Source: Viridothelium virens
Lineage: Eukaryota > Ascomycota > Dothideomycetes > Trypetheliales > Trypetheliaceae
Reading direction: 5' to 3'
DNA: 64,000 nucleotides
Assembly (NCBI GenBank): GCA_010094025.1
Contig: ML991839.1
Coordinates: 99,985-163,984, forward strand
Both the position numbers and the translations under genes were made by a program. This document shows positions 3,344 through 64,000 of this stretch, in pieces. The notes below the pieces were generated by a model. It worked only from the letters and a program-made list of their open reading frames with translations, was not told the DNA's origin and searched no databases. The stretch's first letter is position 1. The number at the start of each line of letters is the position of its first letter.

Positions 3344-5954
3344 AGAACTCAAATGTATGTCGGTTTGTGGTGCAGCTTGTCTGTCAAAGAACCTTGGTCT
3401 TGGTTGTCACAAAAATGACGTGAGGCCGCGCGCTTTAGGAAATCATTTTGAAGCACCCCAAAACAGCACGAGCTGCCGACGACCATGCGTTAAGTTAGAG
3501 AGAGTTTAGAAAAATAACAATGAAAAGCAGGGACAATTTTAATGCAGAGATCAGATCGAGGACGGCCTGGTCAATCGATACCTTGCATTACGGATGGATG
3601 CCCTCAAACGAACGCAAGCCGACGCACGCCGATTAGGGTAGGTAGAGTACCTAGATACACCGCGGTCCCACGACCAGCCACGCCAGCTCCTGTATAAAGC
3701 GCTTGGAAATGTTTCAAATCAAGAAGTCACCCACTCTGACTGTACACTTGCATTCATTTCTTACTCTCTTTTGCCTCCCTCCCACTTGTTTTGGGCATTG
3801 TGAACAAGGCTGGTCCTTGACTGACTATAATTGATACCCTACACGATCCCAACGATGTCTGGAGAGTGATTGTCACTAAGTCTCTGTGCCTTTAGTAAGG
3901 TAAGTTTTTCGACTGTCATGTGGTCTCTTCGTGAAATTAGGTGTGTCTAGAATGTACTGAAGATTTTATAAATACAATAGACGGATAGGTTGCTCATGCA
4001 TGCACATCGTTGCATTCTCGACCTTTCACGGGTACTTATGCTAGTGCCGAAGTTTTTGGGGCATTACTATGTAGATAGGACTAGACAAAGATTCGCATTT
4101 TCCTCTTCAATTTGCTTTGTTCTTCGATTCAGAAGGGTTGTAGACATTACGATTCGTCGTAGAAAATGCCTGTCGTAGGAATACTGCCTCAGCAGCACTG
4201 TTGTGATCCATTCCCGTCGAAAGAATACATTAGGGGGAAAAGCTTCACCCAATGAGGCGTAGCCTTGTGAGACCGCGATAGGCTTCATCGAGACCGACCC
4301 AAATCACGAGATTGCTTTCATAGAGGAACCTTAAATATGATTGAACTACTGTTATTCATGTGCGACTGCTGGGAGGCTTGCGTGGCGTGCTGCAGCTTCG
4401 TAAAGTCCCGCATTCTGGCGGGTGTGACAAACCCTATCATCGGCGTTCAGTTGCAACCATGGAGGTAGATAGCCTTCGATTATCCTTGGAAATCTGCGTA
4501 TCTCTACTTGATATATTTGATAAGACCTGGGGCTCTCTGCTTTCATGAAAATGAGGTAATCGGATTAAACGAGAGAATGGTGTAGCATTTACTTCTGAAG
4601 TTTATGGGTGCACCTGGAACGTAAGGTGGCTGCGAGATGGTAGCACTGCGTCGGGACGGTCTTACCAAGGATGTAGCGCGGGAAATTCAGTCACAGTGCA
4701 TTCGTTCAGGCGCACTGCTGACTCTCGGATGAACTGTCTAGAGACAGGTAGACAGTGAACGCAATCAGCGAATCAAAGTGGCGGAGATAGGCCAAAAAGG
4801 GTCAACTTTGCGACACCGCAAACCCTTGATGGCGTATGTGGATGTGTCTTCTTCTGCGGTACGGTGTTGCTTCGATTAGTTGAACTGAAATGGGTCTCAA
4901 AATGACCAAGCGTCCGAGCAGGTGCGTCCCAATCGAGGAAAGCCACACGGTGATCTGAATGCCGGAGCCGTAGAAGAGCTTCGCCCCGGATTTCAACTCT
5001 GCAGAGGACTTGGCAACATTCAACGTCATATGCTGCTATAGTCTTGAGCAGCAGATTTGTAATCGCAACATCCATACCAATGTCGCGGGTTGACAGAGAA
5101 CCGGAGCCACATCTCGAGGGCTGACAGTACCTGAGCCATAAGGCTCTAAGCCCGAGGCTTGACGCTGCAGGTTGAAGCTTTGTTTGCATTCCCAGGGTTG
5201 TGTGAACTTCACACCACGCGCAAGGAGAGCAGCAGATTAGGCTATGCAAACGGCCCCTTTAGAACAGGCGGGCATTCTCAGACGTCTGTCAGTACCTACA
5301 ATGCCCTTCAACAATATCGAATCCAATGTGTGCGATGCATCTGCAAGTGAGGACCGACGGGAAGGCGCGATGAGCGGGTGCAAGGAGCGTTCGTAACTGA
5401 CTGATTCTGTTTTGATACATCACAAGGACACTGCGATATACCTTGCTGCCAATCCACATATGGTTGCTTCTTGCATCCCAGAAGACGTCTCCATTCAGTG
5501 TCCACTCTCCACTTTCTTTCTTTTCCTGATCTGCTTACTGCCCTCGCTCATTACCAAATTGATCCCTTTTGACGCTGCAAGCCACGCCAGAACGAGTTTA
5601 TTATCCTTTGCCCTACACTCCTTTGTCTTGTTGCACGCCGTACGCCAGGTTGTACGCTGCACCGCGCCTCTCATCTCTGACGACCGATCGGTTTCACGTA
5701 AGTCGAACAATGACGCTCATTGACCTTGCACCTCCGTATCTCGAGGGCTGGACCTCCTGGACTCGATCCACATACTTTGCCATATAAGCTTCACTTCCGT
5801 TTGTCGAGATTCGATTGAATCACCCCATGCGTTCATGCAACTTCACTGACTGATGGTAGCCATCCATTCTTTTCCTGTAAAAGATCTACGATCCCACTTA
5901 CAAAAAAGCCATATTGCTGTCACTGCTCATCGACCGGCCTGAGCATAAAGAAAC
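3344..5954. other. Long intergenic region (2.6 kb), no supported gene
   Basis: There is a promoter-like block: TATAAA at 3693-3698, a pyrimidine-rich run at about 3755-3790, and an ATG at 3855 that opens only four codons before TGA. A strong donor-like GTAAGT follows at 3900. This could be a spliced non-coding transcript or a decayed gene. The ORFs at 4773-5249 (-) and 5412-5723 (+) have no recognisable protein character. A motif related to the TACCTAGGTA palindrome lies at about 3636-3658. The distal part is the promoter of the CAP gene. Confidence 0.4.
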
Positions 5955-16043: not shown

Positions 16044-16430
16044 CTACAGTTTTCGAGCGCGATCTAAGGTGCCAACAGCATCACAGAACCACTCGCCTTC
16101 GGTCATCTGCAAGCCCCTAGTGGAGAGGTACTCTGCTGAAGCGATGATTCCAATGAACGGGGTTACGAGCTCAAGGAATTTAGACAGGTCGGCGTTATCT
16201 TTACCCTGCTGATCGCGAATCTTGGAGTAGACTTTGGCAAGGACGGTCCATCTGGCTTGGAAGTGGTTCCCCTGCCACAGTACGGTGAGGAGAAGTGAAA
16301 TAGCTTTCTGTCGAAAGTCCAAGAAGATGGGGGACTAGTAGACTTGAAGAAAATTAGTATCACTGGTGCCTGAATTGCAAAGGACAAACATACCGTGAAA
16401 CGCTATGTAGGTTGTCAGTATGGCTAGACC
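16044..16430 (-). pseudogene. Broken alpha-box (MAT1-1-1-type) mating gene relic
   Basis: The frame from 16334 down to the stop at 16044 encodes about 96 residues. These match the core of the alpha-1 domain: SPIF, then QK, LWQ-x4-F-x3-W, VYSKIRDQQGK, a GII motif and YL-x3-G, spaced as in fungal alpha boxes. Upstream, TTYIAFH (ending at 16394) fits the domain's first helix. Between them is a good intron: GTATGT donor at 16393, branch TACTAAT at 16359-16353, CAAG acceptor at 16343. That splice keeps the frame but makes TAG (16337-16335) where the family has a second Tyr before SPIF; the next AG shifts the frame. Homology begins immediately after the SmB stop, so the N-terminus is missing. No protein follows the box either. 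I read it as a truncated, nonsense-bearing relic, not a working mating gene. Confidence 0.7.
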
Positions 16431-16432
16431 TG

Positions 16433-17383
16433 CTATCTGTTGCCACCAAAACCTCCTGGAGGAAAACCACGCCCTTGACCAGGTGGCTGGAATCCGGCAG
16501 GTTGGAAGCCTGCTAGTATTGGATTAGTACCAAGGTCGAATGGTTAGAGTTCCGGAACTTACTTGCTCCCGGAGGTGGCGGTCCTCCTGGAAAACCTTGG
16601 GTTGGTGGAGGAAATCCAGCTACACACAGTATCAGTGTCATGTTATACTGCTCGTAGGCATATGGGGATACTGACGAGCTCCACCTGGTGGCCCACCTCT
16701 TCCTAAGCCACCTGCTCCAGGGAAATTTCCACCTGGAGGGAATTGACCTGGAAATCCAGGCCCACCGACGCCGGCAGCTGGACCAGTCAAACCGCCAGGC
16801 AAGCCTCTACCTGCTGGTCTACTGATCCCGGTTCCAGCCGCCATCGTTGCTGGTGCGCCTGTGGCCCCACCTGGGGCGCTGGTGCCTAATCTCGCTGAGG
16901 GATCACTTGGAGGTGGACCATCGACTGAGCAAGAGACAATGTGGGTACCGCGAACGATGGTGAGACCCAGCGTACGCTTCTCTTCACTTTCAACTAGAGT
17001 AGGTGGCGCCTGCCCGGGTGCTTGTTGTGCTTTGGTCGGCTTGCGTTTGACACGTCTGAATTCTTCCGTATCTGCTAGGACAAGGTTCATGTGCTTGAGA
17101 GATGTCAGTGCTATATGGAGAGATTCTACGACTGGGTGACGATGACTATACCTTATCAAACGCAAGCATCTGGCCGGTCATCTGGCGTCCGTCTGTAAGA
17201 GTGATGCGCATGCGATAATTGATCTGAAGTGAGGTTAGAGTAAATCATGCATGCAGAACAAAACGATTACTCACTAGGTTTGTCTAAATTGAGCGAAGTC
17301 AGCTGGGCCTGTCAACGCAAAGCTTTCCTCGTGAAAAAGAATGCGGTGTCGCCTACCATCTTGCCAGTTTTATTTTGCGCCAT
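16433..17383 (-). CDS. SMB1: Small nuclear ribonucleoprotein SmB
   Basis: 220 residues from six exons: 17383-17357, 17283-17275, 17223-17152, 17093-16676, 16619-16563 and 16512-16433. The second exon is only 9 nt (Thr-Asn-Leu); it is needed to link GKM to INYRMRITL. The Sm fold is clear: INYRMRITLTDGRQMTG is Sm1, and LTIVRGTHIVSCSV is Sm2. The tail is rich in Gly/Pro and ends GFGGNR, as in SmB/SmN. The protein sits in the heptameric Sm ring of the U1, U2, U4 and U5 snRNPs. It is divergent from RPL11, with 303 bp between start codons. The alpha-box relic abuts its stop codon. The exon count is high for so short a gene. Confidence 0.95.
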
Positions 17384-61169: not shown

Positions 61170-62950
61170 ATGGCCTGAATTAGAGCGGAGAAGAATACTT
61201 GATGAAGCTTCTTTTCTCGAAATATGGTTTGAAGCATATCATACTAGTTTTCACCAGATTTTTTTCTGCAACCTGCTAGAAAATTTATATTTTATGTAGT
61301 CTAGTAAAGGTTGTGCCATAACACTCCCGGATCTTTTTTCTCTTTTTCTATCATCGCTTTGGCCTTATTATTGTCGAATTCATAATCCTTTAGATAAGAC
61401 ATCTTATTCACATTGCTTTTGTTCGCCATGTTGAAATTCTTGTTGGCTGCCGTAACTGCCGCCGAATTCCTGACAACAAGAATAAGATCGCAAACTTCTC
61501 CATCTTTAGCCAATACAGCGATCAGTGTGCTAAAAATGGCTACTGCTTTTAAGAAGCTGAGAGCTTAAAATAAAGTAAGATGGATACAATATGAAAGGAG
61601 CGATACTTTTACGTTCCTTATAAACGACTTCTTTGTTCTTGGGATTTATTCTTGAGATTCAACGTCTTTATCAGTTCTTTGTCGATCAAGCGATGTTTTG
61701 ATGAACGTCGCTGTACTTGAGACCTTTGTCGGACATAAGGCGGAGATTTTATTGGAGCAAATCAAGACGCTGAGGAGACTGGAAAATCAAGCTGAAGTAT
61801 TGAGTTAGTAAGACAGCAGCAAAAGACAGTTGTTCAAACATGGAAACTAAGGACATTAACAGTTTTATTATGATCAAAAACATGGCGTTGAAAGATGATA
61901 ATAATGAGAAATTTACGACATTTAAATCGTTTAAAGAGTAAAACAGCTGATGACAATAAGCAGTATTAGGCGAAGGGATTACAAACGAAGAGGATTAAAA
62001 CCGGGAGTACAGCAGAAGCTGAAGCTAAATAATAAATGGGGCTGTATCAGCGCTGTCCATACTGTATAACATATCAGCCTAATTAGGTTGAAGAGAAGAA
62101 AAAGGGCGATTAGGCACAGCCAGCTGATGCGATTGTCAAAGGAGCAGAGAGAAAGGTAGGAGCAAGAACACAAGATTAGGACAGACAGTTGGTGGGGGAA
62201 GGGGGCTTTTATAGACATCAAAAGCAGCACCGGCGTGACACCTGAACGGGGCCCAGCACAGGTGCAGGACCAGCTGGAAACGGGCTGCACCGGGACCAAC
62301 ATTATCCATATAAGCCTAAGTCTTGATGATTTGAGTCTCTTCTTGGGATAAACCTTTCGCTGCTTTTACATAACAATGTACCAACATCATGGTCCGTAAT
62401 TGGCACCTGCAGAGGTCTGGACGCACGGACGTATACAAGGATTTGGACCGCCGTGTAAATCAGTATGGCTGCAGCTGCTCAGTCGGCTTAAAGAAGCTTC
62501 ACATTGGGCCTGTGGCACTACTTGTGCTTATTCGTTCTTGCGACCCTTTAGGTGTATAAAATAAGTCGGTAAGTCTCGCCCGGAGTTTAGCCAAAGATCA
62601 CGTGAAACCAGAGCGGAGTTCGGGTAAGCCCAGTCCACTCCACCCCACATGTAAGACTGGAATGGTCGGACGTGGCTCAAGCAATCGTTCCCGACTCTCA
62701 GCTCTGCCTTGCTTTCGCGCCCTCAGATTTGTCTTGCGCATGGGAGGCGACATTCAATTCTGATCTCAATTCTCAATCTATTCTCTTGGCATATTTCATT
62801 GAATTACAGATTTGTCGCATAGCGAGATATTATTGCCCTTCCTTCTCAGTACCTTTACGTTCGGTTCGAACAGTATGGTGACAGCAAGGCATCAGCCGGA
62901 GAAGGACTGCGTGCACAACGATTCTAGATCTTAGGGTGTGAGGAGAAGAA
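61170..62950. other. AT-rich, repeat-like region
   Basis: Gene-poor DNA with many short interrupted frames. The frame at 61301-61513 (-) is Lys/Asn-rich and not recognisable. A candidate solo LTR lies at 61831-62301. The composition and lack of genes suggest decayed mobile DNA. Confidence 0.45.
61831..62301 (-). mobile_element. Candidate solo LTR (retrotransposon remnant)
   Basis: The 471-bp block begins TGTT and ends AACA, the TG...CA layout of LTRs. On the minus strand it starts TGTTGGTCCCGG and carries TATAAAAG at about 62206-62213, about 90 bp from that end, as expected for a U3 promoter. No clear 5-bp target duplication is seen (ACAGT before, TTATC after), and no coding part adjoins. 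The assignment is tentative. Confidence 0.35.
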
Positions 62951-63191: not shown

Positions 63192-64000
63192 CGAGCAAAG
63201 ATCACGTGACTGATTAGTAGTGAGAAGCTACAGATCAGGATAGAGCGATCTGGAGCGATCACCCACGGATCACAAGTTATCACACTGATCAGCAGCGATC
63301 AACCAGAGATCAGTAGAGATCTGATCAGAGGAGAAACAGCTGTGATCGGGGGAAATCACAAGTATATATATGTAGGAGGGAATCAGCTTAACTGACTTCC
63401 TCGCGTTTTATTACCATACTGTACCTACAGTTAGTTACAAGCCTGATTAAACAAGACCTTATTTATTATTTAAGTTGTTTAAGCTTAGTGACCCTTCTTA
63501 CATCACTGGATCCTCGACACTCCGCTCCTACGTAAAAAACCCTGAGACCTTTCTACGTACCTGCTACAAGCTGTTATGAGCCTATACCCCCTAGTACAAG
63601 CACAGCTTGTAGCAGGTACGTAGAGTGGTCTCAGAGTTTTTCACGTAGGAGCGGAGTGTCGAGGATCCAATGATGTAAGAAGGGTTACTAAGCTTTGAAC
63701 AACTTGGTAATAAATAAGGACTTGTTTAATTTGGCTTGTAACTAACTGTAGGTATAGTTTGGTAGGATAATAAAATGCGAGGAAGTTAATTAAGCTGATT
63801 CCCTCTTATATATATATACTTGTGATTTTCCTGATCACAGCTGTTATCCTTCTGATTAGATCTTTACTGATCTTGGGTTGATCGCTACTAATCAGTGTGA
63901 CAACCTATAATCTATGGGTAATTACCCTAAATCGCTCTATCCTAATCTGTGGCTTATTATTATTAATTAATTATGTGACCTTTACTTATTATAACCTGTC
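63180..64000. repeat. Large imperfect palindrome with RIP-like divergence
   Basis: The left arm (63180-63574) and the reverse complement of the right arm (63602-64000, continuing past the window) align along their whole length around a 27-bp loop. The innermost approximately 90 bp are almost identical. Outward, the arms differ mostly by C/T and G/A changes, with the right arm AT-richer. The left arm has about ten GATC tetramers between 63200 and 63360. It could be two copies of a transposon or LTR in head-to-head orientation. Confidence 0.85.

Follow-up and report, generated by a model that had tools for sequence, protein, structure and literature searches.

The alpha-box sequence behind the SmB gene of the lichen fungus Viridothelium virens is one tile of a MAT1-1-1 set, and this set is part of a wider collection of mating-type gene shards dispersed through the genome. 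Beside the MAT genes themselves, we detected at least 32 short matches to the MAT contigs at 15 loci, 30 of them derived from MAT1-1-1 or MAT1-2-1. Together, the pieces reconstitute the exons of both genes, apart from a 67-bp gap in MAT1-1-1, which takes in the final 12 bp of exon 2 together with intron 2. A first-pass annotation of the 64,000-nucleotide stretch analysed here (the window) had described a lone relic at SmB, a description that is not supported now that the piece is seen as one of many.

Results

The MAT1-1-1 piece behind SmB

An alpha-box relic at positions 16044-16430 had been proposed from the reading frames, and profile searches bore this out. Exon 2 alone (16334-16044, minus strand) scored 72 bits against PF04769, and 82 bits once the exon 1 tail was joined with X replacing the stop, compared with a cut-off of 28.1. 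A whole-genome scan with the same profile also recovered the SmB-side piece, with one internal TAG. The piece spans profile positions 50-136 out of 194, and with the TAG inside it the reading frame is incomplete. On the minus strand, 16411-16092 opens with 18 bp from the end of exon 1, continues through a 51-bp intron, and closes with 251 bp of exon 2 (Table 1). Starting at the acceptor AG, the piece agrees with MAT1-1-1 on contig C147 at 234 of 253 bases (92.5%), and the exon 1 tail with 11 bp of the intron matches MAT1-1-1 positions 4890-4918 at 24 of 29 bases (E 0.006). The GT-AG intron with its TACTAAT motif and the upstream exon 1 tail, both recognized in the first pass, agree with MAT1-1-1 in position and phase; the remainder of the window intron aligned with the gene intron no better than shuffles did (0.345). 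Comparison with the uninterrupted gene also upheld the reading of an in-frame TAG where tyrosine is expected.

As had been noted, the homology opens just past the SmB stop, at a distance of 21 nt, so that the piece sits where the SmB 3′ UTR would be; it closes at 16092, and local comparison with the MAT genes detected no MAT similarity in 16091-16044 (minus). The two had been called fused, which is not supported, since SmB keeps its own stop ahead of the piece. The sequence common to the window and C147 comprises only the 253-bp piece and one weak 72-bp match at 62233-62304, and no further MAT flanking sequence was found at SmB in this comparison. A search of Rfam at the gathering threshold returned nothing in the window. 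At 63398-63783, the window carries an inverted pair of about 180-210 bp that is 75-89% similar to several AT-rich places on contig C150, a dispersed repeat.

Table 1. Coordinates of the SmB-side piece and of adjacent repeated copies (window positions, except in the last row, where locus handles are given).
Feature	Position	Strand	Basis or remark
SmB stop codon TAG, end of host gene	16433..16435	-	Frame ends GGFGGNR-stop; LSM domain in related models P0016, P0018
MAT1-1-1 exon 1 tail (gene positions 4890-4907)	16394..16411	-	Match 4890-4918
Intron 1, 51 bp, GT...TACTAAT...AG	16343..16393	-	Placed and phased like the 59-bp intron of uninterrupted MAT1-1-1; diverged
MAT1-1-1 exon 2, first part (alpha box; gene positions 4967-5217)	16092..16342	-	Identity with C147; PF04769
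TAG; tyrosine codon in the uninterrupted gene	16335..16337	-	Sequence comparison
Open-frame tail without MAT similarity (WFCDAVGTLDRARKL)	16044..16091	-	Comparison with MAT genes
Adjacent repeated MAT-segment copies	L053 3088-3552; L050 2894-3300; L051 3038-3444; L030 3435-4310		

Uninterrupted MAT genes in the same genome

Searching elsewhere in the genome, as the first-pass annotation had suggested, we found both MAT genes uninterrupted in the 30.7-Mb assembly: MAT1-1-1 on C147 (345 aa) and MAT1-2-1 on C150 (428 aa), each with three exons in models that we built ourselves. A TGA flagged in the C147 gene by the profile scan falls within intron 1. The two contigs, of 18-19 kb each, bring the genes of both idiomorphs into one assembly and have a flank in common that is 76-85% similar. 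This co-occurrence may reflect either mixed mating types in the culture or homothallism. Searches on either side of the MAT genes returned the repeat-like flank common to C147 and C150 and already known pieces, and nothing else. By domain search, the MAT flank holds an MMM1/SMP-type gene, and an I_LWEQ (SLA2-type) match was located on contig C82. RIP-like dinucleotide indices were 1.16-1.28 and 0.71-0.75 in the AT-rich parts of C147 and C150, whereas the genic window was not RIP-like (0.68, 1.27).

The C147 MAT1-1-1 protein has an identical entry filed as Trypethelium eluteriae (Q9157), and a model of the SmB piece under the same name has an alpha-box stretch identical to that of the window. 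Since the T. eluteriae (Q9157) models P0002 and P0018 are identical to the V. virens-like genome in the compared MAT stretches, the species labels are uncertain.

Number, extent, and tiling of the shards

Using 3 kb around MAT1-1-1 as a genome query, we recovered the gene and at least 16 other matches (14 in MAT1-1-1 and two in an adjoining frame), and 3.2 kb around MAT1-2-1 likewise returned its gene and at least 16 others, both counts being lower bounds. The two in the adjoining frame lie at C77 and at C1:481 kb. Pieces of both genes occur together at one locus only, C1:154363-154644, where they are interleaved. A finer local comparison added a small MAT1-1-1 exon 2 piece at C29 and pieces of a second C150 frame at C1:378-379 kb. 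With matches accepted up to E 1, this comparison gave 57 of them against an average of 12.1 over 20 shuffles; the weakest of the 57 were left out of the piece count. All local matches with E <0.001 run sense to their source frame, including those of the second C150 frame, for which the query used was in the antisense direction. As controls, 3.25 kb of MAT flank with the MMM1/SMP-type gene returned no shards as a genome query, and 5 kb around SmB returned the MAT gene and five matches of 67-72% within a neighbouring frame, read by eye as a helicase.

Among 33 hand-listed matches, the longest was 333 bp and the median 106. The MAT1-1-1 pieces range from 119 bp before the ATG to 16 bp after the stop and those of MAT1-2-1 from 34 bp before the ATG to 160 bp after the stop, and genome searches with both genes and their flanks found no further shard of either gene past these limits. 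Stop codons are present in the window and C19 pieces. At some loci, the same MAT segment is present in two or three adjacent copies that differ in divergence: 89, 71, and 76% identity at C57 and 82 and 89% at C4, with repeated copies also at C19 and C29. The adjacent copies listed in Table 1 look as if one host locus had taken the same segment repeatedly.

When the pieces were ordered along the genes, each overlapped the stretch covered so far by at least 9 bp, the step across the MAT1-1-1 gap excepted, and the overlaps were 9-65 bp once copies had been merged by locus. We compared this arrangement with random placement of pieces of the same lengths, in runs with 15 and 16 pieces and in runs where merging by locus had reduced these to 9 and 9. 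Random placement left a mean of 24-32% uncovered against 0-5% observed, where the 0% of the merged MAT1-1-1 set, which counts the absent intron 2 as covered, is partly by construction. The observed coverage was reached 0 times in 20,000 in each of four runs, with piece limits typed by hand, the span of the pieces themselves as the range, and the pieces of the two other frames left out.

Introns kept and lost

Three of the four MAT introns are retained among the pieces and one is absent. The window piece preserves MAT1-1-1 intron 1, and introns a and b of MAT1-2-1 are kept, in diverged form, at C59 and C43. MAT1-1-1 intron 2 is cleanly absent at C29, where exon 2 runs straight into exon 3; over the 25 bp concerned, a case from a single locus, the agreement is 19 bases with the exon 2 tail against 3 with the tail of the intron. 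The relative P0004 appears to read through the intron 2 donor, so that intron 2 is probably ancestral. The exon 3 part at C29 is identical to the gene at 69 of 70 positions (Fisher p 0.001 compared with the exon 2 tail), which would fit a conversion from the MAT gene that came later and was bounded by the exon, though this is a thin, single case.

Position behind host genes

At 13 of the 15 loci, an upstream frame in the same orientation stops 19-224 nt before the first piece, and at the remaining two, C10 and C21, the 600 nt upstream contain no end of a host gene. Because a convergent far neighbour leaves a piece sense to one neighbour either way, nearness is the better test. In all 13 cases, the nearest downstream antisense frame of at least 130 aa (an open reading frame, taken as a putative gene) lies farther away (186-1726 nt) than the sense stop, by a narrow margin at C59 (273 nt against 214 nt). 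The corresponding sign test, 0.5^13, is approximate, with open-frame neighbours treated as genes. Hosts above the Pfam cut-off were Rpb8, WSC, SQS_PSY, WH2, Peptidase C13, Med10, NIP7, and Whi5, while the Nod1-like host at C77 and the Alba-like host at C59 fell below it. The SmB, DAD3, and uL14m hosts are backed by related models with LSM, PF08656, and PF00238, respectively. Last exons of some hosts (NIP7, Whi5, and DAD3) were assigned by eye from the reading frames rather than from a gene model. The gene models P0016, P0018, P0180, P0068, and P0069 join host proteins (SmB, uL14m, DAD3) to MAT shards; such fusions are probably annotation artefacts.

Divergence and occurrence in relatives

Differences from the uninterrupted genes are spread evenly over the codon positions (39:41:38 for MAT1-1-1 and 71:84:72 for MAT1-2-1, with overlapping copies each counted), as they would be without protein constraint, and a kept coding function was set aside on these counts. 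In the comparison with related species that had been suggested for this interval, a Trypethelium subeluteriae gene model carries the same piece behind SmB, and the uL14m shard likewise recurs at its host in that species. The SmB pieces of T. subeluteriae and the window differ at 6 of 80 residues, compared with 14 between the window and its own MAT1-1-1; P0005 was left out of these counts for want of a matching stretch. Residues 14, 23, 31, 35, 66, 73, and 75 are common to both SmB pieces against all three uninterrupted proteins. At residues 5, 76, and 78, the pieces agree with the V. virens gene and differ from Bathelium and P0004. The pattern is reversed at residues 52 and 60, as a later change of the V. 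virens gene at these sites would predict. These patterns suggest that the copying, or the last refresh, may have taken place after the Bathelium split and before that of T. subeluteriae, and the shared derived residues argue against recent homogenisation at SmB.

At uL14m, the pieces differ from each other at 6 of 54 residues and from their own gene at 7 in each species. They have two changes in common (8 and 43), but at one of ten variable sites, site 42, each piece agrees with the gene of its own species. The T. subeluteriae set includes MAT1-2-1 (P0075) beside the MAT1-1-1 piece (P0016), and its MAT1-1-1 was not among the matches of the protein search, which is weak evidence for heterothallism.

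Discussion

Origin of the shards

From the sequence comparisons, we lean towards the view that the dispersed shards are RNA-derived pieces of a shattered extra MAT transcript copy, captured behind host genes and now decaying. DNA copies would have been made from partly spliced MAT transcripts. These copies would have come to lie behind hosts through template switching to host messages or by capture at the 3′ ends of hosts, and would have become fixed there before the T. subeluteriae split. An RNA step is favoured by the sense site behind host stops, the coverage near the coding limits, and the one spliced junction. RIP needs roughly 400 bp in Neurospora. The longest match is below this length, so RIP may have removed longer duplicates and let short pieces alone persist. 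Within the limits of exons, the MAT gene may later have refreshed some pieces, and most shards would now be inert 3′-UTR passengers. Against this proposal, the three retained introns are contrary to a mature-mRNA origin and weaken a purely retropositional view, single coverage with short overlaps is not what independent captures predict, and C10 and C21 do not fit capture behind hosts.

Retained introns and overlap tiling favour DNA breakage, or are at least compatible with it. A second genomic MAT copy could have been shattered by staggered cuts, its filled-in ends giving the short overlaps and its fragments being captured at breaks across the genome, with antisense and intragenic captures selected out. 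Such an origin, which we consider possible but rather unlikely, would account for the near-single coverage, the three introns, and the interleaved pieces of both idiomorphs on C1. It is hard to reconcile with the clean absence of intron 2 at C29 and with pieces that keep near the coding limits, and the sense site behind stops at 13 of 15 loci would demand strong selection.

It is improbable, in our judgement, that the shards are functional, for example as sense 3′-UTR sequences acting on MAT RNA or as templates maintaining the MAT genes in both mating types. The tiling of both genes, the sense position behind hosts, the retention in two species, and the 69/70 identical piece beside a 19/25 stretch would suit a function, but the even codon-position pattern and the stop codons in two pieces speak against it, and the typical divergence, near 10%, would leave few perfect 20-mers. 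Antisense action is disfavoured by the sense direction of all local matches with E <0.001. In a fuller version, every cell of either mating type would hold complete shattered MAT transcripts of both idiomorphs as sense 3′-UTR segments of a dozen-plus hosts, RNA-templated with short tile overlaps and MAT-refreshed, and the set would help to regulate MAT RNA or be kept as spare template; we regard this as a long shot. The first-pass suggestions of an old MAT locus position, an idiomorph-switch scar, or a translocation are very improbable, since they explain alpha-box homology away from the MAT contig but not a 320-bp stretch without MAT flanks, the other pieces of both genes at 14 further loci, or the T. 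subeluteriae piece behind the same host.

Comparison with known systems

The closest known case is that of the MAT exon fragments of Cercospora beticola. Bolton and colleagues reportedly described, in 2014, dispersed MAT1-1-1 and MAT1-2-1 fragments in C. beticola and C. zeae-maydis that jointly reconstitute exons, and are said to have proposed an RNA (retroposition) origin. Like Cercospora, V. virens is a Dothideomycete in which fragments of MAT1-1-1 and MAT1-2-1 lie scattered over many loci and jointly restore the exons. It belongs to another order (Trypetheliales), and its pieces retain three of four introns whereas the Cercospora type is described as exons only. The V. virens shards lie mostly in sense just behind hosts. 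Two same-host pieces in V. virens and T. subeluteriae also seem to depart from the Cercospora type, in that they have shared derived residues and do not match their own MAT gene throughout. With C. beticola MAT1-2-1 as query, one C. zeae-maydis model, P0235, gave a weak match (47% over 20%). Aylward et al. are also said to have described MAT-associated genes and dispersed fragments in Mycosphaerellaceae and Teratosphaeriaceae; the likeness to V. virens lies in the dispersed MAT gene fragments.

Processed retrocopies are similar in the one precise intron loss and in pieces near the coding limits, but the V. virens shards keep three introns and are many sub-gene pieces at separate hosts. In the scrambled genes of ciliates, ordered segments have short pointer repeats common to successive ends. 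The V. virens shards are likewise ordered segments with short end repeats; here, however, an uninterrupted MAT gene coexists with them.

PMC5431814 and PMC12034460 cite the MAT fragment study of Bolton et al. 2014, PMC8809443 names the V. virens assembly along with relatives in Trypethelium, Astrothelium, and Bathelium, and passages of PMC7513301, PMC4981457, and PMC9453070 contain nothing on MAT fragments. A literature search for Trypetheliaceae with mating type found no paper, and the sense 3′ position of the shards is not put forward here as a new observation.

Shards of this kind can mislead PCR assays for mating type, as well as gene models, in lichens. Dispersed MAT fragments in Cercospora are a reported oddity without explanation. 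A second lineage with a clear rule, in which pieces lie mostly in sense behind hosts, tile end to end, and are of mixed splicing, makes the origin of the fragments testable.
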